A program made the translations under genes and the position numbers. From positions 1 through 38,294 of IMG/VR virus record IMGVR_UViG_3300006805_000068: a DNA stretch of 38,294 nt; one strand, 5' to 3'. The notes under the pieces were generated by a model that worked only from the letters and a program-made list of their open reading frames with translations, made no database searches and was not told the origin of the DNA. Below are positions 6,701 to 34,763 of the stretch, one piece after another. Source of the DNA: a virus. The number at the start of each line of letters is the position of its first letter. Within the stretch, counting starts at the first letter, position 1.

Positions 6701-9700
6701 AAGGCCAACTCTAATCCATTCACCCGAAGTGTACTTATAGATTTCACGCTTCCCGTCACTGTTGCTGAGTACACCAACAACCATATTCTCAACAGCATTA
6801 AGTTTTACTAAGTCATAATATTTTGGAACTTCTAGATCAGTTCTAGTGTTATTACTAAATCCAGCAGCGTACCAATAAACATATTCCCAGTAATCATTAG
6901 TATCAAAGTACTCACCCGATGTAGTAAACATGATTGGGGCGCCAGCTCCGGCAGTTGCAGTAACTCCCAAATTCAAGAAGCTTGGATTTTTGATTTCAGT
7001 AATTGGATACTGTAACAATACTCTATTTGCATAGTTACAGTAATTTTCTAACGCAGATAATCTATCAATAAAGAAACTTTGATTTGGTCTTTTTAATACA
7101 CCAGTTCTTAACTGACTTGGCAAATATGGATTAGGTAAAACTTGTCCTTGATTGTCAACTCCTGATAAGCTTTCTAGCATCTTTAGATACAAGTCTTGCG
7201 GATCAGTAATTGTGTTAACAGATGTAGGGAATCCAGTTAAGAAATCACCTGCAAAACCATCTCTGATAAGTTGGAATTGATTATGTACTGTATCGTCATT
7301 GTTACCTGATTTAAATCCAACGTGAACACTAGTTGTAGTTGAATTGATAAATTCGTTACAGTTATATAAACCAAACACATTCGGACTGAACGGTGCAAAG
7401 AAACTTATTCCCGAACCTTGAGGATTAGAAATATAAGACGCGATAACTGAATCAGTAAGAGTCTTTTCTTTTTTGTCAACGATAGTGTCAGTATTTCTTA
7501 CCCAATAATAATAACGGGTAACAACAGCTCCGGTATTATCTAAATCAAATGCAGTTGTGTAAGCATCCAAGTCGTATGGAGTGCCGGTACCTGCATAGTT
7601 CATTGGCATTACATCACTTTCAATCCATGTATAGATTGCAACAGTGCTGCCAGGGAATACGTTTGCCCAATATTCACTATTATAAACTACGTCATTTTGA
7701 TGATAATCAACAAATCGTGTATAGGTTGTGTCAAACCATAGTTTGCCAACGAAATTCTCAGCCCATACAATCTTGTTATTTCTTATTTCAGTGTTATATC
7801 CTGCTGGATCAATATTTGAGATAAAGTCTAAGTTCTCTCTGACTACACCAAACAATTTACCTTGTAGCGGATCAATATAATCTAACGAATCTAATTTTTC
7901 GTTAGTTGTGTTATCAAATAGCTGAATTGACTGTAGTTTATTAATATCAACTACTTGTTCAGAGGTACGATATATTGACCAGTTGGGTTGATTTTCAGCA
8001 TTTTGATATGCCGTTACACTACCATTAACTGTACCTGAATAGTAAGTTGGTGAGCCAACTACAACGGTGTAATCACTGAACGCCAATGTCTCACCGTAAT
8101 ATGGTCTTGGTCCAATTTGTGATATAGTATCATTAATTGTTTGAGCTAGTACAAACTTTCCAGTATTTGTTAAGCTTTCATTATATGCTGGTAAATAGTC
8201 AAACATATAAACTGCGCCAGCGTTGTCAAAATTGTCAACCCAAACAGTAAAATTATTATCAAATATAGTATCATTGGTATATACTTCGTCGTCAGTAAAA
8301 TCAAATGAAGTTGAAGTATATCTGATTCCAACTGGGGCGCTAACTACAAAAGAGTTATGCTCGTTATATTTTACAGTGTAACCAAATTGAGTAGCATTTT
8401 GTTGATTTATATCATGTAAAATCTGTGTCAATTTATATTCAACAATACCCAAATCTACTAAAACAGTTTTATCAAATACATTGATACTTAACTTATCATT
8501 AATGGGACTTAAATCTAAGTTAATCAATTGAATTATTAGTTTTGAATCAGTTGTTGCGCTAGCTTTTACATTAGTTACGTTTGCATTGTTAATTGCAGTT
8601 ACAGCACCATTGACAGTACCTGCAGGTAAAGTTACTGCATATCCGTTAATCAAGATGGTTGCTGCAGCAGTTAAGTTTACTGCAGTTTCACCAATAATGA
8701 TTCCGTATTTTTTACCACCATTGGTATAACGATACACACTTCCTTCAATATTAGATTCGCTAATATCAAAAGGTGCACCTACAATAAATTCGTTTGCGCT
8801 TGTGTTATTATCTATTGAGTTACCAAACTTAATTCCTACTCTTGGAGTAGCAGATTCAGTATAACCGCTTAATGTTTGAGTATTAATAAAGTCACTTGAG
8901 CTAACTTTGACAATATCCCCTGCATTAACCTGAACTTTTATACTAAGTTTTACAATATCAGTTAATGTAAACTGTGAACTTTGTAGTTCAACTCCGTTTA
9001 GTGTAACTGTTAACGTTGTTGCTGGTTGCCATGCTAATGTAAACACGGTTGATTGCCCCACCAAAGTGTTATAGCTATGCTCAAATATTTGGCAAGTTCT
9101 ATCAAACATATAAACAAAACCAGTGTTGGTGTAAGTTGAACTAAAGTCTTTTTCTGGTGTACCGACAAATAGTTTGCTACCATCATAATTAGTTGACAAT
9201 GAATAACCAAACTTATCATTTGATGCAAGATTTGAAACTGTTAACGTTTTGGTGAGCACAAATTCAAAAGTTGCAGTATAAACAGCAGTACCGGAGGTTA
9301 CATCAGTCGCGATTGCACTGTCCAAATATATCGTAGTACGATCAGTTGAACTTTCATATTTTGAAGTAACAACCAAATATGTTTTACCAGTGAGCATATT
9401 GCTGAAACTTACATTTGTGCCCGGGGTAAATGTTGCTGCATTCTCTCCTGCGATAACAAAACTATTATCGCCTGCTGCTATATTAACATCAGTATAAAGT
9501 TCTGTTGCAACAAGTGTAGGGTTATAATTACGTGAATAAACTAACACTTCATTACTTGCAGTTGCTGAAACAAACATCCATTTTGAATCACCGGACAATG
9601 TGATAGCGTTACCTACGAGCTTGGACGCAAATGTAATCTCTTGCTGAAGCGCAACTGTTTGTATTTTACTAGTTGATACAAGCGAGTATACACGAATGAT

Positions 9701-12700
9701 ACTTGCAACCGCAATATTGTTACTGTCTCTACCATTCTGAGGTTGAGTAATAACTAATGTGCTATTTGATTTTGCCATTGCTGCGCCGAAGCCTGCTGAC
9801 TTAACAAATGTATTGTCTAATGCAAATCTATTATTAAAGTGCGAGTATTGATAAACAACTCCTGCTTCGGCATCACCGACAAAATACCCTTGTCTTTTAT
9901 CGTAAACCATTGAGCTACCAAATGTCAATGTGCTTTCAGGTTTAGTTAATCCATCTAAATGTTTGTAGTTTATACTCTTTCTATAAACTGCCCAATCTCC
10001 GTTAACTCCATTATCAACCCATACTTTATTCTTGACAAATTCGCTGTCTAATAAAGCCAATGACTCAATATCTTTTGGTGTTGCAACACGTTGACTTTCA
10101 AACTTTGCTACAATTCCAGTTCCATTTGTTGTTTGAATACTAGCTGGCAGCGATAGACTGATTACAACGGAATTATTTCCGTTAACATTCAATACCTCGT
10201 ATAATCCATCAACTGTTGACCCAAAGTTTAAAATCATAATCAAGTCATCACTGACTAATCCATGCGGATTATCAAATAGCACAGTAACAGTACTATTAAG
10301 ATTATTGTTTACCCGCACAGCTTGAACTGGACTCTTTGAGAAAGTTACCGGAACCGGAGTATAAACATTCCAAGTACCTTTATGATCTGCTACCCAAACA
10401 TATTCATTCTTATATAGTTCTGATATTGGAGCAGAAGTATCATTCAATCCCATGAATGTAAATGCATTCATTGCTACATCATTGAAATTCACATAGCCTG
10501 CTGTTGGCAATTGAATCAATTCGCTGTTACTGCGTACTGGTAGAATATCAGTATTTGCAATCGGTTGATTATAATTTGTTAATGAGTATAACGGAACAAC
10601 TTGCATTAAGCCTGCAGGTGTTGAATCATCAACAATTCCAACGATGTTTGGATTTCCGCGCAATTGTTTTTCGTCTAGTTTGAATTCAATAAAGTTTTGA
10701 TTTAACACACCACCATACTGACCTGTTCTAATTGCCCAATTTTCGTATGCAGTAAATTGTAGTGCTCCGGTAGATAGAGTAATTCCTTCAACTGAAGTTA
10801 AACTATTCTTGCTTCCCTTTTCTGCAATAAATGATTTGTAAAAACCAACTTGCGAGATTTCACTTATATTAGCGGATGCTAAATAATTTCTTGGTCTGTA
10901 ACCAATTAAAGAGAAACTTAAAATATCAGAATCTGAATCTAAATTAGATAAAGTTGAGTCATAAAATAATGAAGCTTCGTATGCTCTGCTACTTGCATTT
11001 GGTAGTAGCCCCTTTTGTATTTTTTCATAAGGGGTCTTAACCCAATACTGTTGTTGGAAAGAGTCACTAGGTTGAATAATTGAATTAGCTAACCAATAGT
11101 CATTCTTGAACTTTACGATAATTCCTTTAGTGTACTTTGTGTTAACCGCCCACTCTTGTATGTTATCTTGATTTAGTATAAAGCCCTGTGTGTCAAGGGT
11201 ACCAGTCCATTCGGCGGTTTTTCTGCCCTTTACCATCATTCTATTTTGACGTAATCCGGTGCTTGGATCAAATAACAGATCATTGAATATTGTAGTGTTA
11301 TCAAAAACAATCGCATGCTCTATGTTACTTAAGTTAACAGTAAAATAAGAAATCGCGTCACCGTCATTTAATGGTGCAGCAGTAAAGATTGTACCATCAC
11401 GATTGATAGCCATGTCTTTTAACTGAATCGGGATTAGATCCTGATTTAGTATATAGTTTTGATTTTGAATTGTAAGTGGTTGAACAATGCTACTTTCTTT
11501 GTCAATAACTAATTGTTTAGCAATCGGGTTTACATTTATAACTGCGCCGACTTCCCATCCAGATTGAATCCAGTAAAGTACTTCAGAAATAATCTGATTC
11601 CAATCAATTACAATATTGTTTTCTATGTTCTCAAACTTTATACCTTGTTCGGTCAAATATCTTCCGTAGTTTGCAATAAACTCAGCTAATGCTTGCGCAG
11701 AATTAAACTCAGTTCCATAAGGAACAATGATTTCAGTTTTAGTAAAGTTCTTGCTTACAAATACTGTTAGATCGGATACGGTTATGTTTCTATAGTTTCC
11801 GTTTATCAGTGGACTAAATGTTGTAAAATATATTTTGTTTTGGCTATTACCATAAACTTTAAATCCATTTTCAGTTTTTTGTACAATTACTCCACTATAC
11901 TGAATATTGCTGAACGGTTGATTCTCGTGCAATAATACTGAATAGCTTTCGTTTGGAACCATTAATGATTTTGTATTATTAGTAGAGGTTGATGTTCTAT
12001 CTGAATATGAACGTTCCACATAAAAGTTTAATAAATCTTTGTCACTAAAGCCAGCTAATCGGTATGTTAATCTAACATCCAAATTGCTTAATAAAGAGTT
12101 TAACTTGTCTGTCCCAGTTGCACCGGTGCTTTGAACATAATCAACGATCCAATTTAAATAACTGTGTTGGGCTTTGCCACTACCATAGTCAACACTGCTC
12201 ACAGTTGACAATCTATATCGGTCATTAACCAAATACTGGTTGAACTCAGCATTGAATTTATATGTGTCTAAGTTTTGACCAAGAGCAAAGAATTTTGCAG
12301 GTTTGCATAACGCAAGTATCTTTACTAAATCAAATGCCCATGTACTACTTTTTAGATAGCTATACTCTGCTGGTCCACAGTCTCCCACTTTCCAATCTCT
12401 ACTAAAGCTTACTGAATCATAGCTACCGACTACTGCATTCATTGGTCCAGCAAGTTTACCTTCACTGTCAACTGGTAATACATTTAATAATCCAGGTCTT
12501 GCTTTATGCGGTAATATTCTTGAATCACCACCGTTGTAGTCAAAGCCAAGTTCCATATCATTCCACAGCAACAAGTTGTCGCTTGTATACGGAGCTTCAC
12601 CGTATCTAGTTTCCCACCAAAGTGGCTTGCTTACATATCCTATCATTTCCCAAGGGGTTGAATCAGGTGTAACAGTGTCATAGTACCATCTGTAAATACC

Positions 12701-15700
12701 TTTCCAGTTACCTTGTTTAAAATTAGTAGTATCTAATTTGCTTGCTGTTTGATTGTAATTCCATGTGTACTGATTATCTGTCAAATAATATTGCGGTTTG
12801 TATTCTACTCTGTTTTTTCCTACCCAGTTCAAAAAGAATATTGAGTAAAGACCCATAATATCAGAGTACGAATATGAAGTTGTTCTAAACTGTCCAGGGA
12901 ATACATCATCAGCAAGAACAGGGAGTGCAGCATCTACTTTTATATTGTTATAGATTCTTAATTCAAATTCAAACAACGCACGATCTCTAAAATCTTCCAA
13001 GAAGCCTTCGTTATAGCTACCGTATAGTTTAGTAAGAGAACCGTCATGGCCTTTAATAAAGTAAGTAGGTGACAGATAATTAGTTTCAAGTACAATTTCA
13101 GGAACTGCTGCTGGCAAGAAACCTAACTTTGTAGGTGTATTTGGAACAAAGCTTCCGTAAGTTTGATTATATTCATTGATTACAATATGATCACCTAACT
13201 GCAAACTTGCAAATATAGTTACTTTTGGATCAGTACTGCTAACAATATAATCCTTACCTCTTACAAGTTGAATTGTACGTGTAACACCCTGAACTGTGCG
13301 AATCAAATAAACTAAGACGCTATCATAGTTTGCTGAAGTAAAGTCATAAATCTTACTCAACGAATAAAAAACATTGCTTGCTGCTGAATTATATCTATAG
13401 GTGTTGCTTGTTTGAGCACTTCTATTTGGTAGCATATCTGACCAAAAGAATGAATTACTTTCGCTCTTATACGCAGCAATTTGATTCAATGCATCATCTA
13501 AGATGCTTGCGTTTGATTGCAACACATCATAGCTAGTTTTGTTAATGGTATCTAGCAACAAAGTTTTAAACTTAACATACTCGTCACCGCTATAGGTAAG
13601 TGAATCAATTAAGTTATAATTTTTATTACGCAAGAAGGCACCCATCAATGGCAGTGGTGCGCTACTTTGAATAATTTTATTACCAAACGGAACAAGATTA
13701 CCCAAGTCTCTAAAATTATTAGGGCCGAAAATTGTTCCTTGAATTTGGTTACTATTAACACAAATACTTTGATAGTGACCTCTTACATCACCTAAATTCA
13801 AAGTGCTAATCTGTGTATTGAACGGATTGTTTGCTAAGTTACTAGGTATAGTATAATAAGCACCACTTGTGCTTGCAACATCACTGTAAATCAATATTTG
13901 AATTTGAGTATCTGTTGTGGGATTGGTGTTCAACGTTATAGTAGTTGCAGAATCAGTAACCACAGCGATATACTGTGACTGAGCAAGTACAGTTGAATTT
14001 ACGATGACTCTAATTGGTTGCCAATTAGTTGAGCCGCTTGCCTTTGCAGGAACATCGCACAAGAATTCAGCATTGTTTAATGACGCTGGATTGTACGAAA
14101 AGTCAAATGCTTGATACTGAAAGCTTTCTCCTGCAGCAGTTTGCCAACCTAATTGTCTAGAGAAGTCTGTTCTGTTATTGAAAAGATGCGGGTATCCAAT
14201 GCTAACTTTTTCAGTAACTGACTGGTTGTTTACTACGTAATTAAATGTGTTAGCGTTAAGTGAAACAGAAAATCCAATATCACCGATATTATTTACAGTG
14301 TTATACTTTAACGGAAATCCCAATACTATATCATCGGAACCTGTTCCAATTGCATATTCAAATAGTGTACAACCAAGAAAGTCACTACTTTGATAGTAAT
14401 CAGTATCGCTTAAACTTAATCCGTTTTGATCAAAAATATCAAATAAAGGTGGCTGATTTACATTTATTTTTTGCTGTGCTTCTTTCCAATTTGACCCGTC
14501 AAAGTAAAAGCTTTTCCCTTTGTTCTGATCACCTTCAAAAATAACAACTTGATCATCAAATGTAACATCCCCGTTAACTGTTTTGGCTAACGAAATTACC
14601 GGAGCGGATGAACCTGTAATTGACACAAAATTTACTGAATATATTTTGTTACGAACCGATAGATTTTTATCGTTTGCAAAAATTATAGTGCTACCTTCAG
14701 TTAATTGAAACTGTGATCCATCAGGGAAATATGAGGTCGTGCCGGATACTTGATTAAATGCATCAGTTGATGTAGTATCAATAAATGACACTTTACCTTT
14801 GCCAACAGTGCCAGAATCAAATAATTTTATGTTTGGGTAGAATTCAATAATAGGACGTTTTGCTCTGCTTGCATCACTATTCAACACAGCAAGGACTGAT
14901 GCAGTAGAATTATGCTTGACTACTTCAGTAAGAACTCCAACGTGGAACCAACGATTGCTTCGTGACCATGCATTTTTACTGTTTGCATTTCTGCTAACGG
15001 TAATATAATCTTTAAGAACAGGAACATTTACAGTTGATCCAAAGTTTGAAGTATCGTATGGATCGATATCGTATGCACTATAAACTTGTTGTGTAAATTT
15101 TTCAGGGACTACATAATCTAAAACTGAGTGCAATGTTATACTAGAGCCAACACCTTCAACATAGTATTGTCCTGTTTGATAACTAGCAGGGAAAATGTTT
15201 CCAGAAAATGTAACTTTCAAGCCATTAGTAAATGTAACCCCATTTGGACTTACATATGTTTTCTTGCCTAGCACTTCTGAATCAAGATCAATAAAATTAT
15301 TTGTTTGACCTTCTATTAATTTAATAATACCAAACTTACTTGGATTTGTTCCATCCTGATAATACAATGTACTGATCGGTGCCGTTACTGTAGGAATTAT
15401 AGAAATAACACCATATGGATTTTTTACAAAATCAGTTGTGCTAAACAAAGTTCCATACGAAACGGTAATCTTTTCATTAGTTGGGATTGATCCTATTTCT
15501 GAAAGAATTATTACTGGATCACCTGGGTTTGTGCCGTCATTATAAACAATACGATAGAATTTAGTTGTTACATCAGTTTGATCAACCTCATCAAAACTTA
15601 CTATAGTGTTGATGTCACCGTCAAATAATTCATCATCATATAGTCTAGTTATGTTTCCAACTGTTGCCGACGGGAAACCATAAAACATCAAAGACTTATT

Positions 15701-16564
15701 GTTAAGAATTGTAATGCCATCAATGTTTTGAACTTCACTTAATCTTTTTCCGTGAATTTTATCAAACGGTACAGTTGCAACCAAGTCTACTCTATTATTG
15801 CCCGGATATACATCTGAGTTTTGCGCATCAACTGCCGGTACTTGGAATGTAATTGTTTCATTGTTTTGCGCGCCATTTGCAGTAACACCAAATATAGAAC
15901 GAGTGCTTATGTTAGGGCGGTTTGGATCAGTTCCTGTAATACCAGGAATAGTTTGAATCCAAAAATTTCCAAATTGTTTTGTGCTGAACGTATATTTGCC
16001 ACCGCGTAATAAGGTAAGAGTTGGGTTTAATCCTTCTACTACTTCATTGTCTGCAGTGAAAGTAAATGCGTTAGTAATATCTTGACTCACATTATAATCT
16101 ACAAGGTAGTCAAGAATACTAGGTCTTACTTCAACTGGATCAGGTCCGTTTGGTAACCAATAATACTGATTAAAGTTGATGAGTTTATCTAAATCAGTAA
16201 AACTGTCCCATGAATAAAATTGATTTGAGAACAGGCTAGAATTTTTAGCAACAGGACCACCCTCTAGTTTTAGAGAGTCTAGCATTTCAGGATAAGTTAT
16301 AAAATCACTTGCAGTACTAGTTTGTTCTTTAGTGAAAACAACCGCAGGCTCTAATTGATAATTTGTTCTGGCTTTTGTTGGCTCTGTGATATAACTATCA
16401 TTTGAATTAATCCCGTATTCAAATTGGCGACCAATATAACCCTGCATGCGAGTTATATTTGGTTGCTGCACTAATTGATCTAATGTAGCAGTTAAAAATT
16501 GCTGATTAGGGGTGGTTCTGAATATATCAGGAAGAAATTCAAGTGTTCTAACTTTTGTTACCAT
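731..16564 (-). CDS. giant baseplate/tail structural protein in the gp7 position (5277 aa)
   Basis: This uninterrupted reading frame begins 11 bases after the gp6 stop. It occupies the place of T4 gene 7 (wedge initiator, about 1030 aa in T4) but is about five times longer. The N-terminus (LEFLPDIFRTTPNQQFLTA, then FYSWDSFTDLDKLINFNQYY) matches my recollection of very large virion proteins in T4-like cyanophages. Visible modules are: FG-GAP-like repeats at about 2210-2860 (FGxS blocks followed by GxVYxF or GxVYxY); seven S-x-[DN]-[GA]-x-x-W Asp-box-like motifs at about 4285-4585; several copies of a roughly 40-residue unit of the form VxxNGxxL...DYT...GDxIxV near 2515, 4761 and 4851; and two related modules near 3500 and the C-terminus (IDQEIIGY / INGEKIRF, then LSRG or LTRG, then a His). 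The protein probably combines wedge scaffold with surface-exposed binding domains. Identity with gp7 rests on gene order only. Confidence 0.85.
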   Translation of the reverse strand: MVTKVRTLEFLPDIFRTTPNQQFLTATLDQLVQQPNITRMQGYIGRQFEYGINSNDSYITEPTKARTNYQLEPAVVFTKEQTSTASDFITYPEMLDSLKLEGGPVAKNSSLFSNQFYSWDSFTDLDKLINFNQYYWLPNGPDPVEVRPSILDYLVDYNVSQDITNAFTFTADNEVVEGLNPTLTLLRGGKYTFSTKQFGNFWIQTIPGITGTDPNRPNISTRSIFGVTANGAQNNETITFQVPAVDAQNSDVYPGNNRVDLVATVPFDKIHGKRLSEVQNIDGITILNNKSLMFYGFPSATVGNITRLYDDELFDGDINTIVSFDEVDQTDVTTKFYRIVYNDGTNPGDPVIILSEIGSIPTNEKITVSYGTLFSTTDFVKNPYGVISIIPTVTAPISTLYYQDGTNPSKFGIIKLIEGQTNNFIDLDSEVLGKKTYVSPNGVTFTNGLKVTFSGNIFPASYQTGQYYVEGVGSSITLHSVLDYVVPEKFTQQVYSAYDIDPYDTSNFGSTVNVPVLKDYITVSRNANSKNAWSRSNRWFHVGVLTEVVKHNSTASVLAVLNSDASRAKRPIIEFYPNIKLFDSGTVGKGKVSFIDTTSTDAFNQVSGTTSYFPDGSQFQLTEGSTIIFANDKNLSVRNKIYSVNFVSITGSSAPVISLAKTVNGDVTFDDQVVIFEGDQNKGKSFYFDGSNWKEAQQKINVNQPPLFDIFDQNGLSLSDTDYYQSSDFLGCTLFEYAIGTGSDDIVLGFPLKYNTVNNIGDIGFSVSLNANTFNYVVNNQSVTEKVSIGYPHLFNNRTDFSRQLGWQTAAGESFQYQAFDFSYNPASLNNAEFLCDVPAKASGSTNWQPIRVIVNSTVLAQSQYIAVVTDSATTITLNTNPTTDTQIQILIYSDVASTSGAYYTIPSNLANNPFNTQISTLNLGDVRGHYQSICVNSNQIQGTIFGPNNFRDLGNLVPFGNKIIQSSAPLPLMGAFLRNKNYNLIDSLTYSGDEYVKFKTLLLDTINKTSYDVLQSNASILDDALNQIAAYKSESNSFFWSDMLPNRSAQTSNTYRYNSAASNVFYSLSKIYDFTSANYDSVLVYLIRTVQGVTRTIQLVRGKDYIVSSTDPKVTIFASLQLGDHIVINEYNQTYGSFVPNTPTKLGFLPAAVPEIVLETNYLSPTYFIKGHDGSLTKLYGSYNEGFLEDFRDRALFEFELRIYNNIKVDAALPVLADDVFPGQFRTTSYSYSDIMGLYSIFFLNWVGKNRVEYKPQYYLTDNQYTWNYNQTASKLDTTNFKQGNWKGIYRWYYDTVTPDSTPWEMIGYVSKPLWWETRYGEAPYTSDNLLLWNDMELGFDYNGGDSRILPHKARPGLLNVLPVDSEGKLAGPMNAVVGSYDSVSFSRDWKVGDCGPAEYSYLKSSTWAFDLVKILALCKPAKFFALGQNLDTYKFNAEFNQYLVNDRYRLSTVSSVDYGSGKAQHSYLNWIVDYVQSTGATGTDKLNSLLSNLDVRLTYRLAGFSDKDLLNFYVERSYSDRTSTSTNNTKSLMVPNESYSVLLHENQPFSNIQYSGVIVQKTENGFKVYGNSQNKIYFTTFSPLINGNYRNITVSDLTVFVSKNFTKTEIIVPYGTEFNSAQALAEFIANYGRYLTEQGIKFENIENNIVIDWNQIISEVLYWIQSGWEVGAVINVNPIAKQLVIDKESSIVQPLTIQNQNYILNQDLIPIQLKDMAINRDGTIFTAAPLNDGDAISYFTVNLSNIEHAIVFDNTTIFNDLLFDPSTGLRQNRMMVKGRKTAEWTGTLDTQGFILNQDNIQEWAVNTKYTKGIIVKFKNDYWLANSIIQPSDSFQQQYWVKTPYEKIQKGLLPNASSRAYEASLFYDSTLSNLDSDSDILSFSLIGYRPRNYLASANISEISQVGFYKSFIAEKGSKNSLTSVEGITLSTGALQFTAYENWAIRTGQYGGVLNQNFIEFKLDEKQLRGNPNIVGIVDDSTPAGLMQVVPLYSLTNYNQPIANTDILPVRSNSELIQLPTAGYVNFNDVAMNAFTFMGLNDTSAPISELYKNEYVWVADHKGTWNVYTPVPVTFSKSPVQAVRVNNNLNSTVTVLFDNPHGLVSDDLIMILNFGSTVDGLYEVLNVNGNNSVVISLSLPASIQTTNGTGIVAKFESQRVATPKDIESLALLDSEFVKNKVWVDNGVNGDWAVYRKSINYKHLDGLTKPESTLTFGSSMVYDKRQGYFVGDAEAGVVYQYSHFNNRFALDNTFVKSAGFGAAMAKSNSTLVITQPQNGRDSNNIAVASIIRVYSLVSTSKIQTVALQQEITFASKLVGNAITLSGDSKWMFVSATASNEVLVYSRNYNPTLVATELYTDVNIAAGDNSFVIAGENAATFTPGTNVSFSNMLTGKTYLVVTSKYESSTDRTTIYLDSAIATDVTSGTAVYTATFEFVLTKTLTVSNLASNDKFGYSLSTNYDGSKLFVGTPEKDFSSTYTNTGFVYMFDRTCQIFEHSYNTLVGQSTVFTLAWQPATTLTVTLNGVELQSSQFTLTDIVKLSIKVQVNAGDIVKVSSSDFINTQTLSGYTESATPRVGIKFGNSIDNNTSANEFIVGAPFDISESNIEGSVYRYTNGGKKYGIIIGETAVNLTAAATILINGYAVTLPAGTVNGAVTAINNANVTNVKASATTDSKLIIQLINLDLSPINDKLSINVFDKTVLVDLGIVEYKLTQILHDINQQNATQFGYTVKYNEHNSFVVSAPVGIRYTSTSFDFTDDEVYTNDTIFDNNFTVWVDNFDNAGAVYMFDYLPAYNESLTNTGKFVLAQTINDTISQIGPRPYYGETLAFSDYTVVVGSPTYYSGTVNGSVTAYQNAENQPNWSIYRTSEQVVDINKLQSIQLFDNTTNEKLDSLDYIDPLQGKLFGVVRENLDFISNIDPAGYNTEIRNNKIVWAENFVGKLWFDTTYTRFVDYHQNDVVYNSEYWANVFPGSTVAIYTWIESDVMPMNYAGTGTPYDLDAYTTAFDLDNTGAVVTRYYYWVRNTDTIVDKKEKTLTDSVIASYISNPQGSGISFFAPFSPNVFGLYNCNEFINSTTTSVHVGFKSGNNDDTVHNQFQLIRDGFAGDFLTGFPTSVNTITDPQDLYLKMLESLSGVDNQGQVLPNPYLPSQLRTGVLKRPNQSFFIDRLSALENYCNYANRVLLQYPITEIKNPSFLNLGVTATAGAGAPIMFTTSGEYFDTNDYWEYVYWYAAGFSNNTRTDLEVPKYYDLVKLNAVENMVVGVLSNSDGKREIYKYTSGEWIRVGLQQGTIQIKSSLWDYSLVNRGFGSEFFDTMMFDNYPSTETMYIIRGLNEEVFTGDLLVHRNKSLILLFEYITGESTESQNYLPWLNKTSFMNVQHTMRELTDTTLYQSDDEVFLEGYLNEVKPYHVIIKEFSLRYTRTEVYNSNVTDFDLPAMFNAKLERFTTPELTFVSTAGDDQFLPLDDIWSTNINYATWFENYGLALTGSIASEITRVKSYVYLTSNQIEVNNAFGFPISGTIRIDQEIIGYSNVDRDNGILFGLSRGLQDSPVSDHAENSIIYMDLPGAIVLNSGRDYIDPPVITAYIDTAIYPAPRTVAKLRPIMLAGQVIGVTVINPGSGYAITPELIVAPSVAVEFADTDINYIEYTITAELGKIKTGDLVKFTANGSGILGLVSGKYYYAAVKGSSSALKKDYISLHVSKTDALAKSHAIVMIQGAVSTGNSLNVTARLLPIASNAAVRQINTKLKFDRTSYYPKVTEWVSGEYYSSVLNTLHNDASSGEKLMEAIEFSNISGTAISPAIGTGASFNVNNLLLDGNWFIEPVIKTTGIGTGTQYAEGDKITDFTLEYEIQTVTNSVPARVTTKLENELVTGTMVNISGVVGMPQLATAGVLGTSNFYIKRETGDTFTLYSISDYSIPVDSLLFTNAFTQTGVVRFTVADCTATVTQVDSFGGILKVKYPDPDSGTPWETRWASLQGSVLPILTSSTETGSNNVVVDVNYFPSSIAAGNVKGRQLYFYKLPVTFTPTLGLGGAIIIVQTPRFDGTKMSKNYTIQLVDGGSIYSIGQKIIVPGTSLGGASPANDLIITVTYAEFGSILYYSLQGVAVNDFQQYYVYPISDTRLKLYKDPALKLPVTDTVNNPFVFERGDYAFLPEPIGSGPTYRFSTDSFTLYNNKIYRCTIANSDTVFDYAKWIEIFSDDPQINALDRVFSYYQPNVNMPGKNLPMLMDGLEYPNATYLGNSFNPELELPIDTVLKDNGFYPKDINLTGIIFDGYKYVAVGDSSENSVVLTSGDGVNWTFKKLSSQVLGVTDLAYSGSFYVVSTTNINTPMLVSYDAINWVSVGAFTPFDVDSFGSAGFDSTSVQSPNSSLQSMLYVNETFIGAGSDILSSNNAVEWTVAFNFDSRLSNVLRAVAYANNGFAGYIAVGNGESVISGADSPSPVIENVSRLLLSSDGVSWLPVAFTVADNLNTVFASPDLNVIAGNNGVIYYSANGRNWVEATVNGPVITSNLIHGIYARGQYVLIGDNGTILYSFDGRVWDQTVAITKENLNKVTYYGDEFIVVGEHATILKSKNATTWVDNSYIASEETAYAVKGDAFMFGYGPEELVAGVVNDCISMTIKSTPGSLWTPINGEHCGFNMIGTTIVPNYTNMFSFDGIVTTPTTIAVYAMDQTTHLGTRLMENVAYSVDWYSKTITLLSSLEGNTVIFLELYEIGGGNQTVRGSSDTFPMLVNARTGFSYFDTLYKYNASVSNPVVYVNGELLTYLTDYTLLPNSTGNTNITFNQAFDPATTYISFALMGSTIVNDVITQYGYSIPQTQVFTYSTGPTVFDLNEFFIGGTNSLHAIVELNGLRLIETTDYTIDSAAKSLTVTIELSAGDTINVTTFNDTREQFLVTDMSTTLSVTPIYYMDTSRSPAVIIVASDPGFITGDKLTIDGLVGASQLQNNSFYAKLEPSYEFEGTTFYPISLFLDETLINPVIGPSTENYVSGGFVWKAESTIQLTQPELDITDPTRLFVTVNGARVDTAFLRMNSGNYLNIMVPVTFGSTIVVTSMMPSATPEEMTYSMIVDKNGVSDVYRANTTTRTWLTKPLYTTQNSMVVKDASKLVTTLKLDAVAQLENNKIVVHIAYVITSIKQISIFNTSTLSELSASDSVLITSDSATLLVLSSNVSEGDLLALTIRFGDTVMINGEKIRFADIDYKTNTLSRLTRGVDGTAVHRTHLANLTVSSLSPINKLPAFYYDKTWNSENFLITGDPLQISDTFPAEFLKS

Positions 16565-28252: not shown

Positions 28253-29149
28253 ATGACACCTACCCCATACAAAAAACCAATAAATTACTTAAACAACAAA
28301 GATATTCTCAAAGAGATTCATTCAAGCAAAAATACATTTTGCTCATTTTTAGACCCAGCTGACCATAGATACGATTTTATCGTTGATATGCCACAAGCTA
28401 GCATTCCTGAAAGTCTAGATCATGCATTACTTGAGGAAACTGTACAAACTGCAAAAGAAACTAGAGCAACTAGACTATCAATTGAAACCGGTTCTCCCGT
28501 TACAGCAGACCAAATTTCAACAACTGATTTAGTTTTTAGAGTAATGACGTGGGATCATATCCCTGTTGCGCCAAAACAGCCCCGTAAGATTGATAAGAAA
28601 AAGACTGCAAAAGATATTTTTGACTTTGACAATCCAGCAGATGAATTGTTCAGCGACTTAGAAGATCCTACTACTAAAGCAGAAGTTGACGACATGGTTC
28701 ACGTTAAAGTAAACTTTCCACCGTTCCAACACTATAGACTAGATGACACTAACACATTCCGTTGCATAGGAAAAAGTCATTGGTTAGGCGATATTGAAAC
28801 CGGCGAGTTTAATAAAGATCAAGGCAATATCACTAACAAGTTAGCCAAAATGTACATCATGCTATGTGAAAAATACGCAATGAAGTTCAACTGGCGCGGT
28901 TACACCTACAACGATGAAATGCGTAATAGTGCGATTCTACAATTAACTTACGTTGGACTACGATTCAACGAAGCCAAAAGTGCTAACCCATTTGCTTATT
29001 ATACTGCGGCTATCACTAACTCATTCTGTAGAGTACTCAATACCGAAAAACGAAATCAAAATATTCGCGATGATATTCTTGAGATAAACGGATTAAACCC
29101 AAGTTGGAGTCGTCAAGGTTCACGTGGGTCAACAAGCTACGAAGAATAG
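28253..29149 (+). CDS. gp55: late-transcription sigma factor gp55
   Basis: gp55 is a minimal sigma-family protein that directs host RNA polymerase to phage late promoters, with the sliding clamp in T4. The C-terminal third (about 190-298) carries the signature of marine T4-like gp55: KFNWRGYTYNDEM, LTYVGLRFNEAKSANPFAYY, TAAITNSFCRVLNTEKR and QNIRDDILEINGLNPSWSRQ. At 298 residues it is longer than T4 gp55 (185); the extra N-terminal 180 residues include an acidic, Lys-rich stretch near 120-150 and no domain I recognise. It heads the plus-strand recombination cluster and is divergent from the baseplate block it would switch on. The late boxes in this window (GATAAATA, CTAAATA) are the expected targets. 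Confidence 0.88.
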   Translation: MTPTPYKKPINYLNNKDILKEIHSSKNTFCSFLDPADHRYDFIVDMPQASIPESLDHALLEETVQTAKETRATRLSIETGSPVTADQISTTDLVFRVMTWDHIPVAPKQPRKIDKKKTAKDIFDFDNPADELFSDLEDPTTKAEVDDMVHVKVNFPPFQHYRLDDTNTFRCIGKSHWLGDIETGEFNKDQGNITNKLAKMYIMLCEKYAMKFNWRGYTYNDEMRNSAILQLTYVGLRFNEAKSANPFAYYTAAITNSFCRVLNTEKRNQNIRDDILEINGLNPSWSRQGSRGSTSYEE

Positions 29150-29196: not shown

Positions 29197-30213
29197 ATGG
29201 CAAATCTATTTAAAAAAGCAGCAACTTTTACGGACATTCATTTTGGTCTTAAGTCAAACAGTTTACAGCACAATCAAGATTGTGAAAACTTTGTAGATTG
29301 GTTCATCAGTCAAGCTAAGGAACAAGGGTGTGAGACTTGTTTCTTTCTTGGCGACTATAATCACCATCGTGCAAGTATCAATATCCAAACAATGCAGTTT
29401 GGGCTTCGTGCATTGGAGAAACTTAGTGCAAACTTTGATCAAGTATATTTTATTCCGGGCAATCACGATTTATATTATCGTGATCGCAGGGATATCCATT
29501 CCGTTGAGTGGGCTAAACATATTCCCAACGTAACAATCGTAAATGACTGGTTCAATCAAGGAGATGTTGTTATCGCACCGTGGCTAGTTGGTGATGATTA
29601 CAAACGACTTGAAAAGCTTGGCGGCAAGTATATGTTTGGGCATTTTGAATTGCCAAACTTCTATATGAATGCAATGGTTCAAATGCCTGATCACGGTGAA
29701 ATACAAGAAAAACATTTACTTGGCTTTGAAAAAGTATTCAGCGGGCACTTTCATAAGCGTCAAGCCCGCGGTAACGTTTGGTACACCGGCAATGCATTTC
29801 CTCACAACTATGCTGATGCAGGCGATGATGCTAGAGGCATGATGGTACTGACTTGGGGCGAAGAGCCGCAGTTTATTAGCTGGCCCGATCAACCTAAATT
29901 TCGTGTGTACAAGTTGAGTAATATTCTAGAGAATCCAGCCAAATTACTATTACCTGACAGTCATATTCGTGTACACTTAGACATTGACATATCTTACGAA
30001 GAAGCAAACTTCATTCGTGAAAAATTCATTCCAGAACATAAACTCAGAGAAATGGCTCTAATACCAATGAAGCTAGATCAAGTTTCACAAGACTTGTCGC
30101 CCGGCGAACTAAAATTTGAAAGTGTAGATCAGATCATTATGGATCAGATTGGTGCAATTGAAAGCGAATTTTACGATCAAAAGATATTGTTAGATATTTA
30201 CAGGAATCTATGA
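29197..30213 (+). CDS. gp47: recombination nuclease gp47 (Mre11/SbcD-type metallophosphoesterase)
   Basis: This is the nuclease subunit of the gp46/gp47 complex, which resects DNA ends for recombination-dependent replication. The length of 338 is almost identical to T4 gp47 (339). The metal-binding motifs of the calcineurin-like family are all visible: D13-x-H15, G52-D53, G88-N-H-D91, G148-H149 and G183-H-F-H186. The stop overlaps the next start by four bases (ATGA), giving translational coupling to the dioxygenase-like gene and on to gp46. Its own promoter lies directly upstream. All catalytic residues appear intact. Confidence 0.95.
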   Translation: MANLFKKAATFTDIHFGLKSNSLQHNQDCENFVDWFISQAKEQGCETCFFLGDYNHHRASINIQTMQFGLRALEKLSANFDQVYFIPGNHDLYYRDRRDIHSVEWAKHIPNVTIVNDWFNQGDVVIAPWLVGDDYKRLEKLGGKYMFGHFELPNFYMNAMVQMPDHGEIQEKHLLGFEKVFSGHFHKRQARGNVWYTGNAFPHNYADAGDDARGMMVLTWGEEPQFISWPDQPKFRVYKLSNILENPAKLLLPDSHIRVHLDIDISYEEANFIREKFIPEHKLREMALIPMKLDQVSQDLSPGELKFESVDQIIMDQIGAIESEFYDQKILLDIYRNL

Positions 30214-30794
30214 TAGGAGATTTTCAAACTTCACCTAAGTGGACACATAAGCCAGTACAAATAGATAATCTAACTAATATTCAAGATGAACTAAAACTAG
30301 CTTTGTACACAATAGTTCCCGCATTTGATTCAATGCCTCCGGCATTTACATTTGTATGGCGAAAAGATATAGAACCGCTAGTTCCTATTTATTGTGAGTT
30401 CTTGAAATCAATAGACCTATTTGACAAATGGAATTATTCTGCATTTATATCTACTAATGCTAACATATCGTTTCCTATTCATGTAGATAGTACTGAATGG
30501 GAAACTAGGTGTTATGGTTTAAATATTCCAGTACTCAATTGTGAAGGTACTTACACTATTTTCTATGATGCAGAAATTAAAGATTCGTTGATTGCAGATG
30601 AAGCTGACCCAACTAATTCGTACAGAATAATTAAAGAAAATACTATTCCAACTATAATAGGAAAACTTGAATCTTCACAGCCCGCTTGGGTAAATATCAG
30701 TGTACCGCATGCGCCGTTCAGTACACACAGCAAACCCAGAGCAATTTTTTCATCTAGATTTACCCCAGAACTTCACGAATTACTGTACAAATGA
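30210..30794 (+). CDS. 2OG-Fe(II)-dioxygenase-like / double-stranded beta-helix protein
   Basis: The 194-residue product lies between gp47 and gp46 with ATGA overlaps on both sides. It has the layout of a small jelly-roll oxygenase: H91-x-D93 in ISFPIHVDS, then RCYGLNIPVLNCEGTYTIFY, and a distal His and Arg in SVPHAPFSTHSKPRAIFSSR (H167 or H173, R177 or R183). This resembles aspartyl-hydroxylase-type phage proteins, where HxD...H binds iron and the Arg binds 2-oxoglutarate. The fold assignment is inference from these motifs; activity and substrate are unknown, and it could be a catalytically silent family member. The tight overlaps suggest it is made in step with the recombination nuclease. 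Confidence 0.6.
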   Translation: MIGDFQTSPKWTHKPVQIDNLTNIQDELKLALYTIVPAFDSMPPAFTFVWRKDIEPLVPIYCEFLKSIDLFDKWNYSAFISTNANISFPIHVDSTEWETRCYGLNIPVLNCEGTYTIFYDAEIKDSLIADEADPTNSYRIIKENTIPTIIGKLESSQPAWVNISVPHAPFSTHSKPRAIFSSRFTPELHELLYK

Positions 30795-32554
30795 TTATAC
30801 TAAAAAATATTACCCTGAAAAATTTCCTTTCAATTGGCGCAGTAACCCAAGCAGTTGATTTTGACAGAAAAGACCTCACACTAATTTTAGGAGAGAATTT
30901 AGACTTAGGTGGTGACGGTGCCCGCAATGGTACAGGCAAGACCAGTTTGATTCAAGGGCTTAGTTATGTTTTGTTTGGTGTCCCAATCAATAGTATCCGC
31001 AAAGATAATCTAGTCAATCGTACAAATGGTAAAGCCATGCTGGTTACGCTTGATTTCAGCGTTAACGGAATTGAATACAAGATCGTGCGCGGTCGTAAAC
31101 CTAACGTACTTAAGTTTTATATTGATAATACTGAACAGATTATCAAAGATGATGCTCAGGGTGATAGCAGAGAAACACAGATGGCTATTGAACGTGTGTT
31201 AAACATGAGCAGCGATATGTTTAAGCACATAATCGCATTGAATACGTATAGCGAACCGTTTCTTGCACTTAGAGCCAATGACCAGCGTAATATCATTGAG
31301 CAATTGCTTGGTATCACTTTGTTAAGTGAGAAAGCTGACGGTATCAAAGAGTTAATCCGCACTACCAAAGAGCAAGTACAGCAAGAAGAATACAGAGTAA
31401 AAGCAGTTGAAGAAGCCAACAAACGTATCACTGAACAGATTGATAGTTTAAAGCGCAGACAAAAACTGTGGGTTCAAAAGAAACAAGAAGATGATACCAA
31501 GCTGTTAAATCAATGGTATGAGTTACGTCAGCTTGATATTGCTATTGAATTGCAAACGCACAAAGACTTAACTTCATACAATCAGTTAGTCAGAGACAGA
31601 GCCGACGTTAAAAAAATGTTAACTCGTGCTGAAACAGATTATGAAAAAGAAAGTAAGGTTGTTACCAAGCTTGAAAAAGAAATTGAACTGCTTAAGAAAC
31701 ATGAATGTTATGCCTGCGGTCAATCAATTCATGACACTAGGCACGAAGAAGTTTTAGATTCAAAAGTAAAATCACTGCAAGAAGCAGCTTTGCAGTGTGT
31801 AACTACTAGTGGCGAAATACAAACTCTAACACAAGCATTGAATGAACTAGGTATTCCGGGTCCTATCCCAAGTTGTTTTTATGATACTGAACAACAAGCA
31901 TTTGACCATGCCAGTAAGATGGCTAGTTTAGAACAACAAATTAAAAATAGAGCGGATGATGTTGATCCATACTCAGAACAAATTACTGAAATGGAAAGTC
32001 ATGCCCTTCAAGAAACTAACTTTGAAGTAATCAATCAACTTACTAGAACAATGGATCATCAAAAGTTCTTGTTGGATTTGCTGACTAGCAAAGATAGTTT
32101 TGTTCGTAAGAAAATCATTGATCAAAATCTGTCATACTTGAATGCACGATTGACTCATTATCTTGACAAGATTGGGTTACCTCATCAAGTTATATTCTTA
32201 AATGACTTGTCAGTACAAATTACTGAACTTGGCAGAGACTTAGACTTTGATAATCTATCAAGAGGTGAGCGCAATCGGTTGATTTTAGGCTTGAGTTTTG
32301 CGTTCCGTGATGTTTGGGAAAGCTTATACACACCTATCAATACTCTATTCATTGACGAGTTAATTGACTCAGGACTTGATTCAATGGGGGTTGAAAATAG
32401 TATTGCAATCCTAAAAGATATGAGCCGCCGTAGAGAAAAATCTATTTGGCTTGTTAGTCATAGAGAAGAACTTGCAGGACGAGTACCTAGCGTACTTAAA
32501 GTAGTAAAAGAAAACGGTTTCACATCGTACAACACAGCAGTAGATATAGAATAA
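30791..32554 (+). CDS. gp46: recombination ATPase gp46 (Rad50/SbcC-type)
   Basis: This is the ATPase partner of gp47 in DNA-end processing. Visible features are Walker A (GARNGTGKTS, residues 43-52), a long coiled-coil middle (about 190-300 and 320-440), a zinc hook C306-Y-A-C309, the ABC signature LSRGERNRLILG near 487, Walker B LFIDELIDSGLD near 519, and the His-switch SH near 555. The 587-residue length is close to T4 gp46 (560). The start overlaps the preceding stop (ATGA). All ATPase motifs are intact, so an active SMC-like enzyme is expected. Confidence 0.95.
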   Translation: MIILKNITLKNFLSIGAVTQAVDFDRKDLTLILGENLDLGGDGARNGTGKTSLIQGLSYVLFGVPINSIRKDNLVNRTNGKAMLVTLDFSVNGIEYKIVRGRKPNVLKFYIDNTEQIIKDDAQGDSRETQMAIERVLNMSSDMFKHIIALNTYSEPFLALRANDQRNIIEQLLGITLLSEKADGIKELIRTTKEQVQQEEYRVKAVEEANKRITEQIDSLKRRQKLWVQKKQEDDTKLLNQWYELRQLDIAIELQTHKDLTSYNQLVRDRADVKKMLTRAETDYEKESKVVTKLEKEIELLKKHECYACGQSIHDTRHEEVLDSKVKSLQEAALQCVTTSGEIQTLTQALNELGIPGPIPSCFYDTEQQAFDHASKMASLEQQIKNRADDVDPYSEQITEMESHALQETNFEVINQLTRTMDHQKFLLDLLTSKDSFVRKKIIDQNLSYLNARLTHYLDKIGLPHQVIFLNDLSVQITELGRDLDFDNLSRGERNRLILGLSFAFRDVWESLYTPINTLFIDELIDSGLDSMGVENSIAILKDMSRRREKSIWLVSHREELAGRVPSVLKVVKENGFTSYNTAVDIE

Positions 32555-32572: not shown

Positions 32573-33142
32573 ATGATAAGTAGAAACATGTCATCTCCAA
32601 GCAAGAACAAAGGATCAGGGTTTGAAAGAGAAATTGCAAAATTTCTCAGCGAAACCTATAACGAAAGCTTTATTAGAGCACCCGGATCAGGTGCTTATGT
32701 GGGCGGTAAAAATCAAAGTCGCACACAGTTCTTGCATGAGGGACAAATCCGAAGCTTTAAAGGGGATATCGTCCCCGGACAAAGTTTTTCAAAAATGAAC
32801 ATAGAATGCAAGTTCTATGCAGATTTCCCGTTTCACTTGTTATTGTCAGGCGAAAGTAAGATAATAGATGCTTGGATTGAGCAACTATTAGATGTAGCTG
32901 AAACAGACGACCTAAACTTATTATTCATGAAGTTTAATAGAAAAGGTCGTTATGTTGCAGTGCAATGCAAATTGACCTGGATCACTGATAATTTTTTCTT
33001 CTATGGAAGTAAAAAGCACGGTGACTGGTACATCATGGAATTTGATTCATTTTTTAAGAACAACCAACACCTAGTTAAAACATATTCAGGCTCCCCAGAC
33101 ACCACGTCAAATAATATTATCACTATTAATACAAACACTTAA
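32573..33142 (+). CDS. PDDEXK nuclease, Holliday-junction-resolvase-like
   Basis: The 189-residue product (or 184 from the second ATG at 32588; neither start has a clear ribosome site) has the PDDEXK core in order: FEREIAKFL with E18 or E20, RAPGSGAYVGG, GDIV with D65, and IECK with E78 and K80. This resembles archaeal Hjc-type and other small resolvases or restriction-like nucleases. It follows gp46 by 18 bases and is last in the plus-strand recombination cluster, which fits a role in resolving or trimming recombination intermediates, although T4 uses the unrelated gp49 for that. The C-terminal 20 residues are Ser/Thr/Asn-rich and probably disordered. The exact substrate is unknown. Confidence 0.75.
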   Translation: MISRNMSSPSKNKGSGFEREIAKFLSETYNESFIRAPGSGAYVGGKNQSRTQFLHEGQIRSFKGDIVPGQSFSKMNIECKFYADFPFHLLLSGESKIIDAWIEQLLDVAETDDLNLLFMKFNRKGRYVAVQCKLTWITDNFFFYGSKKHGDWYIMEFDSFFKNNQHLVKTYSGSPDTTSNNIITINTNT

Positions 33143-33159
33143 ACAACCAGCAGTAGAAA

Positions 33160-33665
33160 CACACAATTAGTTTGGTCGGGGATGCTCGACCCTCCTTGAG
33201 TCAGCCGAGGTAAGGCTCGTTGCCGACGGATTCTGGAGAAAGCCTGAGCGATACTTTATTGTATCGGCGTTAATAACTCAGGGAATACCGACAGGGCAAT
33301 CGAGCAATGAGCGAACCCTGAATGAGTCTATATAATACTTTGTCTTGAAAAATATAGAACATGCGTTGCTGAAAGAGTAGGAACATTCCAATTCTGCCTT
33401 TCAACTACAGTCCCAGCAAACTTTACAGAGCAACCGGTAGCAGATAATAGGAACACACTAGCGTGTATAATACCTAATTATTTGGGGAACAGACAACAAA
33501 GGCGGACGGGCAGGGCAAGTCTAAATTTTGGTAGTGCTAATTTAGCACTACCATGGCTTCTAAGCGGCAATGTAGTTAAACTTCAACAACATATAATTAA
33601 ATAAAGTCCTTAGAAGTATGAGCAATGCGAATACTTCTTAAGGAAGATGACTGAAGGTCATCTAG
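33160..33665. ncRNA. candidate large structured RNA between convergent genes
   Basis: The 566 bases between the PDDEXK gene stop and the gp51-like stop carry no convincing ORF on either strand. Inverted repeats include CCTGAG/CTCAGG (33243-33248, 33277-33282) enclosing CGATAC/GTATCG; long-range GCTCGA/TCGAGC (33184-33189, 33300-33305), an alternative to the local GGTCG/CGACC hairpin; GAAAG/CTTTC (33371-33402); an 11-bp hairpin at 33529-33553; a 12-bp hairpin at 33608-33643; and a 7-bp hairpin at 33645-33663. AACTACA (33405-33411) can pair with TGTAGTT (33571-33577). GAGCAATGAGCGA (33302-33314) is nearly repeated as GAGCAATGCGA in a hairpin loop (33620-33630). Bases 33171-33320 contain 80 G/C of 150, high for this AT-rich genome. 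Size and setting recall GOLLD and ROOL phage RNAs, but no consensus was compared. The strand cannot be decided. Confidence 0.45.
33608..33643 (-). terminator. 12-bp hairpin, possible terminator of the gp26/gp51 transcript
   Basis: The arms CCTTAGAAGTAT and ATACTTCTTAAGG pair with one bulged base around an 11-base loop. On the minus strand the hairpin is followed by ACTTTATTTAATT, a loose U-rich tract. It lies about 65 bases beyond the gp51-like stop. It may instead be one helix of the structured RNA; the long loop and broken U-tract make termination uncertain. Confidence 0.3.
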
Positions 33666-33708
33666 TAATGATAAGCTTACCCGTTGAATATTATTGAGAT
33701 ATTAAAGA

Positions 33709-33885
33709 TTAGAAGAATGGCATTTGTGTTTTCTTAGTAGTTTCTAAGTTCTCTTCGATGATCTCATTTGCTGACGTTATCTCGTCCGGGCTCATGTTTA
33801 ATACATCTACGTAACTTATACCACCGCGCATATACCAAGCTATTCTTTGTGCGTTCTTTTTGATAGCTTTGGTGTCTCTCTCCAT
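33709..33885 (-). CDS. small gp51-like tail/baseplate assembly protein, likely also made as a gp26 frameshift extension
   Basis: From the ATG at 33885 the frame encodes 58 residues: MERDTKAIKKNAQRIAWYMR, then GGISYVDVLNMSPDEI and a C-terminus ETTKKTQMPFF. Small proteins of this form (WYMRGG or WHMRG early, PFF or PLL at the end) follow gp26 in many T4-like phages and are usually named gp51, a hub assembly factor. T4 gp51 itself is far longer (249), so the name is by position and recollection. The same frame is open 18 codons further upstream (RLRLLYLDSPGITKLVEG) to a slippery heptamer at the end of gp26, so an extended version fused to gp26 is expected. Ribosome-site support for the internal ATG is weak. 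A late tail-assembly role is inferred. Confidence 0.6.
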   Translation of the reverse strand: MERDTKAIKKNAQRIAWYMRGGISYVDVLNMSPDEITSANEIIEENLETTKKTQMPFF

Positions 33886-33932
33886 GCCTTCAACCAGCTT
33901 CGTTATACCCGGAGAGTCCAGGTATAGAAGCC

Positions 33933-34763
33933 TTAGCCGAAAAAATCGCTTACATTCAATGTAAACACTTGATCGTATTCATGAGTGCAGCTTGCACATG
34001 TGATATGCAATGGCTTTGTTTGAGTTGATTCTCTTAGTGAGACACTGCGATTTTTGATTGTTTCAAACACCCGCTTGTCTGTATTTTGTAAGAAATCAAG
34101 AATGTATTCTTTTTCAGTTACACGAGTTTCCGGAGTCTCAATATATTCTACGGTGCTTGCTAACACTTGAATAGTTGAGATTGAAATGACTTTTAGAACT
34201 TCAGAAATTTTAGCATCTTTTTCAGTTCCGTTTTCCATTGCGTTTAAGTTCATCATTAGCTTTTGAATTTCAAACTGTTTGATTGAATTGTCAGTGACTT
34301 CTTTGTAGTTTAATGCTCTGAATTTGATCTTTAAGTCATTTAATTCAGTTACATTTACATAGTCACCAGGTACGAAATTGTTCAGTATGATACTAAGATT
34401 GACACCATATTTACCTTCTTCTTCGCACTTTGGGCATGTGGTTTCAATCTCCATTTCACCACCGTTAGTTGCCATTCTGATTGCAACTAAGATTGCATCT
34501 AAGTCAGTACTGCTTATTGCCCATGGGTTCTTGATTGCAGGAATACAGCTTTTGATAATATCAGCAACTGCGCTGCCGTTGTACAAGCTATCTGGTGTTT
34601 TGCTAGTAATCTCATCAATTGCTGTCATTGGAAAAACAGGAAGCTCACCGGTTTCTGGCATTACCAGTACGGATTGATCGTATCCCACACCTTTGCTAGG
34701 TAATTTTAGATAGACGCCGGGTCTGCGAAAATATTGTTTTAATGGGTTATGTTCAATGGTCAT
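33933..34763 (-). CDS. gp26: baseplate hub assembly protein gp26
   Basis: The 276-residue product shows the T4 gp26 family pattern: YLKLPSKGVGYD near the start, then ELPVFPMTAIDEITSKTPDS, LYNGSAVADIIKSCIPAIKN, PW, and a DLDAILVAIRMATNGGEMEI block. It has two Cys pairs, CPKC near 110 and CASC near 256, which together could bind zinc. It is longer than T4 gp26 (208). The ATG has a good AGGAG site. The C-terminus FFG is encoded by the slippery sequence that leads into the gp51-like frame. The gene is divergent from the tape-measure genes, with a shared promoter region of 70 bases. A tail-assembly chaperone role is plausible from this setting; in T4 it is described as a hub component or assembly factor. 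Confidence 0.88.
   Translation of the reverse strand: MTIEHNPLKQYFRRPGVYLKLPSKGVGYDQSVLVMPETGELPVFPMTAIDEITSKTPDSLYNGSAVADIIKSCIPAIKNPWAISSTDLDAILVAIRMATNGGEMEIETTCPKCEEEGKYGVNLSIILNNFVPGDYVNVTELNDLKIKFRALNYKEVTDNSIKQFEIQKLMMNLNAMENGTEKDAKISEVLKVISISTIQVLASTVEYIETPETRVTEKEYILDFLQNTDKRVFETIKNRSVSLRESTQTKPLHITCASCTHEYDQVFTLNVSDFFG
33939..33945 (-). promoter_or_regulatory. -1 programmed frameshift site T TTT TTC
   Basis: Near the end of gp26 the codons are GAT TTT TTC GGC TAA, so the heptamer T TTT TTC is in the correct phase (X XXY YYZ) for a -1 slip, two codons before the stop. Slipping continues with CGG CTA AGG in the frame of the gp51-like gene and adds 76 residues, giving a fusion of about 351 residues. 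The arrangement parallels G/GT tail chaperones of other phages. I cannot confirm a downstream stimulatory structure by eye. Confidence 0.6.

Follow-up and report, generated by a model that had tools for sequence, protein, structure and literature searches.

The window analysed here is a virus record of 38,294 bases, and the genes around the locus described below are of T4-type phage content. The T4 gene numbers used for them are our reading of Pfam and PHROG names. The features at and beside the locus are the following:

28253-29149, plus strand: gp55-like late sigma factor gene (Pfam/PHROG names)
29197-30213, plus strand: gp47-like gene (Pfam/PHROG names)
listed between the gp47-like and gp46-like genes, plus strand: open reading frame of 194 amino acids without assignment
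30791-32554, plus strand: gp46-like gene (Pfam/PHROG names)
32573-33142, plus strand: PDDEXK/RusA-like Holliday junction resolvase gene, the left neighbour (PF24608, 6.9e-25; phrog_244)
33098-33108, plus strand: H0, a 3-bp hairpin (GAC-ACCAC-GTC) inside the resolvase reading frame and upstream of the RNA
33174-33665 (approximate), plus strand: conserved structured RNA (nhmmer matches in at least 283 loci; covariation)
33709-33885, minus strand: open reading frame of 58 amino acids beside gp26, the right neighbour, with an ORF of the same length in many homologues
33933-34763, minus strand: gp26-like T4 baseplate hub gene (PF12322, 1.8e-19)

Elsewhere in the window, an ORF of 5,277 amino acids (731-16564, minus strand) adjoins baseplate genes.

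The sequence-only reading of this DNA described 33143-33708 as a non-coding stretch between convergent genes and as a candidate large phage RNA. The stretch indeed holds no ORF of 60 amino acids or more, and only 7 of 732 sequence-frames are open over 33284-33572 in 122 homologues, leaving no conserved protein frame. Its neighbours converge as claimed, with the resolvase on the plus strand at left and the 58-amino-acid ORF and gp26-like gene on the minus strand at right, and the RNA sits between these complete genes and interrupts none. The proposed range holds in that the conserved RNA lies inside it on the plus strand, but misses H0, which lies outside it where the 3' end of the resolvase gene overlaps the hairpin. 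The GC content of the first 150 bases was overstated (75 bases counted, 80 claimed). A sigma-70-like promoter was not found on the plus strand in 32900-33950, which is consistent with read-through from the operon, and no classic terminator was seen at the 3' end of the RNA. The T4 late promoter word TATAAATA was considered and rejected; its single exact match in the window lies elsewhere than the RNA locus, and upstream of the RNA it has no fixed position in most loci (12 of 116 have it at one spot with at most one mismatch).

On the plus strand, folding of the region alone beats 100 of 100 dinucleotide shuffles (z -4.46). The minus strand also beats 100 of 100 (z -3.96), which counts against a plus-strand RNA, though the G-U count given below opposes the minus strand. 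Stronger evidence for the fold comes from homologues. At least 283 loci have an nhmmer match, a lower bound on family size; once 39 partial copies are dropped, there are 159 distinct sequences, 122 of them at less than 95% identity, and core alignment A1 comprises 62 of these 122 non-redundant copies. The named structure has 48 pairs in nine helices, pseudoknots included, and 96.7% of 2,957 cells in the 62 sequences are paired, against 81.5% in shuffled and 31.5-40.1% in slid controls. Two-sided changes occur at 41 of the 48 pairs, with 495 double-change cells compared to 138 in shuffles. A phylogeny-aware covariation test on the 122 copies, with E-values from a home-made script modelled on R-scape, gave 11 pairs with E<0.05, ten of which are standard pairs within helices. 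Across 15 helix segments in the 122 copies, 9,121 cells are Watson-Crick, 361 G-U, 45 A-C and 217 other, and 1,505 cells changed on both sides; the excess of G-U over A-C (361:45) identifies the plus strand as the RNA. The suggestion of a large phage RNA is thus upheld by covariation beyond shuffled and slid controls and by the lack of a conserved protein frame. That the fold is conserved is, from these comparisons, close to certain, and the best reading of the alignments is that the plus strand of the locus very probably encodes a structured non-coding RNA, large at about 0.5 kb and of a family not described before.

The helices and related sites, all on the plus strand, are as follows:

33174-33191: H1, hairpin
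33192-33195 with 33235-33238: H2, CTCC/GGAG, nearly invariant (488 of 488 cells Watson-Crick)
33204-33206 with 33221-33223: H3, enclosed by H2
33243-33282: H4, hairpin of variable length, with an extra apical hairpin in the window copy
33286-33290 with 33435-33439: H5, long-range helix, all pairs in 114 of 122 copies
33292-33296 with 33316-33320 and 33300-33302 with 33312-33314: H6
33322-33324 with 33360-33362: H7
33327-33334 with 33351-33358: H8
33340-33345 (loop of H8) with 33491-33496: H9, pseudoknot of 6 bp, all pairs in 116 of 122
33365-33369 with 33430-33434: H10, adjoining H5, all pairs in 122 of 122
33372-33408: H11, variable stem, from sequence inspection only
33411-33414 with 33485-33488: H12, pseudoknot crossing H5 and H10, all pairs in 87 of 122
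33441-33451 with 33473-33484: H13, with an apical insertion in the window copy
33510 and 33564: same-base covarying pair (GG, TT, CC) flanking H14
33529-33553: H14, GGTAGTGC..GCACTACC hairpin with hardly any sequence variation
33611-33637: H15, hairpin whose GAA-type loop is flanked by a tandem G-A motif, from sequence inspection
33645-33663: H16, 3'-terminal hairpin

Nine core helices covary in the 122 non-redundant copies, and two of these, H9 and H12, are pseudoknots. A four-way core junction is formed by H5, H6, H7/H8 and H10, and the unbroken 3' strand GCAACCGGTA is common to H5 and H10. The extra apical hairpins that H4 and H13 carry in the window copy are missing from most homologues and explain some of the stems first noticed. 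Three long-range pairings had been proposed as well. TGTCT at 33341 and AGACA at 33491 belong to the real six-base-pair pseudoknot H9, while GCTCGA at 33184 with TCGAGC at 33300 and AACTACA at 33403 with TGTAGTT at 33571, both present in the sequence, are fully paired in just 3 and 1 of the 122 homologues, respectively, and are therefore put down to chance. The proposed crossing is real in that two pseudoknots exist, but the crossing partners are helices which had not been named. The repeat GAGCAATG does occur twice; sequence inspection places the copy at 33302 in a loop that is variable in the homologous copies and the copy at 33620 within a conserved hairpin of the GA-NN-GAA-NN-GA type.

The strongest covariation at 33510 and 33564 links these two sites to each other and is non-Watson-Crick, comprising 69 G-G, 26 T-T, 10 C-C and 17 combinations involving A (n=122). 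The sites read alike (xCATGGCAA and xCGGCAA) and so form a direct repeat around H14. A Watson-Crick third partner for the pair was searched for and none was found. Same-base exchange is known from the comparison of rRNA.

The RNA occupies one position in the genomes that carry it. Searches with the resolvase and gp26 proteins gave at least 160 IMG/VR loci (80 matches listed for each protein), and both genes stand in convergent order in 117 of the loci listed. The intergenic stretch in these is mostly 0.63-0.88 kb and in some 1.2-1.3 kb owing to extra DNA, and nhmmer finds the RNA in 115 of these 117 loci, the window itself not counted. A different element takes its place in L132 and L133, which were excluded from the alignments. 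Four loci (L012, L020, L026 and L029) have about 580 extra bases with a minus-strand ORF of 165-185 amino acids between the RNA and gp26. A possible second RNA in L158 and L159 was considered and set aside, since by eye it reads as coding on the opposite strand.

Two pattern scans blind to the genes, the second pattern being looser, added at least 163 new loci. The RNA is present in 145 of them; the 18 that lack it were all first given by the looser pattern. Both flanking genes accompany the RNA in 107 of the 145 loci, the resolvase only in 18 and gp26 only in 20, and among these context-blind loci listed there is no copy away from both genes. In the 18 loci with resolvase only, the sequence retrieved stops no more than 703 bases downstream, and in 19 of the 20 with gp26 only it stops no more than 192 bases upstream, the twentieth being L317. 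Seven of eight large records (259-525 kb) hold one strong core-model copy, and the eighth, that of L303, is a chance pattern match. Sixteen loci with a distant gp26 (37-45% identity) and without a resolvase relative have no such RNA, and in these an ORF of at least 80 amino acids begins within about 260 bases of gp26. Divergence of the RNA correlates with that of the resolvase (Spearman 0.53) and of gp26 (0.38) across 102 loci, with permutation maxima of 0.15 and 0.18. The single slot, the synteny and the tracking of both proteins point to a vertically inherited core element which is not mobile. Judged by these comparisons, the RNA looks like a component that one lineage of large T4-like phages carries in single copy and passes on vertically.

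The upstream hairpin H0 is tied to the RNA. The motif GACACMANGTCA, present near the end of the resolvase gene in most copies, occurs 230 times in the at least 283 RNA loci (2.77 Mb), always on the same strand and within 220 nt upstream of the RNA, and has no occurrence elsewhere in those loci. A GAC/GTC stem is found in 106 of 114 loci examined. Of the other eight, L094, L137 and L176 have GAG/CTC, L096 and L272 have GGC/GCC, L292 has GTC/GAC, and L290 and L326 have none. Some GAG/CTC stem occurs in 12 loci in total, in nine of them alongside GAC. In control windows (n=306), GAC and GAG stems occur 0 times, GGC twice and GTC once. The number of H0 copies ranges from one to four, with four in the scanned stretch of L137. 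A general promoter was ruled out as an explanation, since H0 stands only before this RNA. A conserved peptide was rejected as well; in frame H0 spells D-T-T/K-S, with M at the third place in some tails, so that the third residue changes while the codon letters stay constant. In L317, which lacks the resolvase, a SegE-type GIY-YIG endonuclease gene takes its place (6718-7161; PF19835, 9.3e-36), and the non-coding DNA ahead of the RNA has two copies of the H0 motif (7193-7246), a further point against a peptide. Location specificity and compensatory stem versions mark H0 as a hairpin, selected as RNA, of three base pairs and an A/C-rich loop of five bases. Although it overlaps the resolvase frame, comparison shows it to be selected as nucleic acid.

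Searches for known families were negative. At the gathering score, Rfam gave no match in the window or in 12 loci homologous to it; at E<=10, a search of the window region and of three further homologous loci gave no credible match. The weak matches at that level (four in the window region, three in homologues) are scattered over unrelated families and places and are taken as chance. GOLLD, ROOL, OLE, introns, ribozymes, RNase P and tmRNA had no Rfam match, and ARAGORN found no tRNA or tmRNA gene in the window and no tRNA in any of the 57 loci scanned. Against 50,697 phage records, blastn with three members gave, among the matches listed, either nothing or fragments of 4-7% with E of 0.8-9. 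The R1 model reached 7.7-17 bits in six named or deposited giant-phage records and in gp26 loci of named phages, at model positions 78-143 only. These matches were set aside as chance, falling in an A-rich part that also matched weakly in other searches; the match in SCTP-2 lies in a coding gene and that in Atu_ph07 between short ORFs. In genome_contigs the H14 pattern occurs 0 times and none of 41 pattern matches is a resolvase relative, which gives no clue to the host. Among the open-access papers listed on large non-coding RNAs of phages and jumbo phages, which include work on GOLLD, ROOL, OLE and phage K, there is no description of this RNA.

Few large ornate RNAs are known, and the phage examples, GOLLD and ROOL, often lie near tRNA islands. 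The RNA described here is likewise a large phage RNA with pseudoknots, but the hint of kinship with these two families is not supported, with no Rfam match in the window or the homologous loci searched and no tRNA genes nearby. ROOL is phage-borne, with an example of 659 nt, several pseudoknots, loop-junction pairing and a function that is unknown (PMC12286853). The present RNA resembles it in size, phage carriage, pseudoknots and loop-junction pairing as given there, and differs in having no Rfam match, in not being near tRNA genes and in being tied to the resolvase-gp26 slot. GOLLD is described as a large ornate phage RNA, often over 800 nt and near tRNA islands (PMC12286853). Ornate fold and loop-junction pairing are shared with it, whereas GOLLD is larger and lies near tRNA islands and the present RNA has no Rfam match. 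OLE is about 600 nt, with an intricate fold and conserved unpaired bases, and occurs in Gram-positive extremophilic or anaerobic bacteria (PMC12286853); its size range, fold and unpaired bases are similar, but Rfam gave no match to it here. The lncRNAs of phage K, a large lytic phage, are abundant and long, and the authors describing them liken them to GOLLD and ROOL on the basis of proximity to tRNA genes and abundance (PMC9241854). Our comparison with them is by description and not by sequence.

Other elements can occupy this position. In six loci (L338-L343), whose resolvase (48-52%) and gp26 are more distant, a different conserved non-coding sequence of similar size, here called type B, lies between the two genes. 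It shares flanking genes and approximate size with the present RNA, but the core model does not match it. By eye, type B also has a small upstream hairpin, AGTC-AAACAAA-GACT. L132 and L133 are of type B too, and L133 has a plus-strand ORF of 92 amino acids between the resolvase and the element which is not seen in L132. Sinorhizobium phage Phosso has a stretch of about 1 kb without annotated gene next to its resolvase (L164, 8224-9237; about 229.8-230.7 kb of the record), and folding of the gap gave z of -6.0 and -5.4 for the two strands (20 shuffles each). A search of viral_contigs for the Phosso resolvase gave 0 of 21. In the PA5oct record, the gap beside the resolvase (L169, 3668-5180; about 75.7-77.2 kb of the record) carries no ORFs other than some of 117-153 bases. 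PA5oct-like gaps have at least 99.3% identity in 11 records, four of which have no annotated feature under the gap, and the PAC2 copy folds with z of -2.8. The Phosso and PA5oct gaps, gene-poor and about 1-1.5 kb long, are candidate RNAs.

The reading we prefer, with modest confidence, is a new family of large phage RNA that would be made from the operon and work in trans, either as the folded RNA itself or as an RNP. The RNA would be co-transcribed with the gp55-gp47-gp46-resolvase operon. A phage protein would bind H0, in its one to four copies with A/C-rich loops, and mark the transcript, anti-terminate it or process it; H0 would also link the RNA to the operon transcript. The released RNA may then act in trans as a folded scaffold, either an RNP or an RNA oligomer, in infection or virion assembly. 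Its stage and partner of action are a guess; the tie to the recombination operon and a baseplate gene would suggest timing late in replication or at assembly. Two observations sit less well with a trans-acting RNA, namely a 3' end without a classic terminator and the locking of the slot between convergent operons, which fits a cis role too.

The main competing explanation, possible if rather doubtful, is such a cis role at the end of the operon. The RNA would be the 3' UTR of the recombination operon, protecting its mRNA from decay and shielding the convergent operons from read-through. This would suit its fixed position between convergent genes in copies with both flanks, the location of H0 in the mRNA of the upstream gene, and the terminal hairpins H15 and H16. 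However, two pseudoknots, a multi-way core and long conserved unpaired stretches exceed the needs of stability or termination, no terminator-like site is present, and L317 retains both the RNA and H0 with a GIY-YIG gene in place of the resolvase.

An RNA-only homo-oligomer of the GOLLD/ROOL sort, in which loop-junction pairing would join copies into a cage or ring, is unlikely. The present RNA is similar to those described in PMC12286853 in its size, its pseudoknots, the pairing of loop with junction and the conserved unpaired bases, and covariation does not distinguish intramolecular from intermolecular pairing in H9, which could join molecules; against this stand the lack of any GOLLD or ROOL match in sequence or model and the distance from tRNA genes. 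Less probable again is an unrecognised ribozyme. The core is pseudoknotted with many invariant unpaired bases, and the order H5/H10-H12-H13 is reminiscent of P3-P7-P8 in group I introns, but the core helix order differs from P4-P6, a linker of 15 nt stands where group I introns have almost none, Rfam gave no intron or ribozyme match, and no gene is interrupted. A DNA-level element (an origin, packaging or recombination site) that is RNA-like only through inverted repeats, such as the almost invariant H14, is highly improbable, as the strong excess of G-U over A-C, the pseudoknots and the non-palindromic conserved loops favour RNA.

The RNA itself behaves like a core gene, with one copy, one address and co-inheritance with its neighbours, at gp26 identities down to 37%. 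More than a hundred divergent copies, together with a model, are ready for structure work, and H0 offers a handle toward the candidate protein partner of the RNA. A more far-reaching version, which we regard as tentative and on the whole unlikely, is an RNA machine in the core genome, made from the operon, recruited at H0 by a phage protein, and structural or catalytic in replication, packaging or hub assembly, with type B, and perhaps the Phosso and PA5oct gaps, as its unrelated-looking counterparts at this position in other giant phages. If other giant phages do fill this slot with other RNAs, a required phage RNA function awaits finding.
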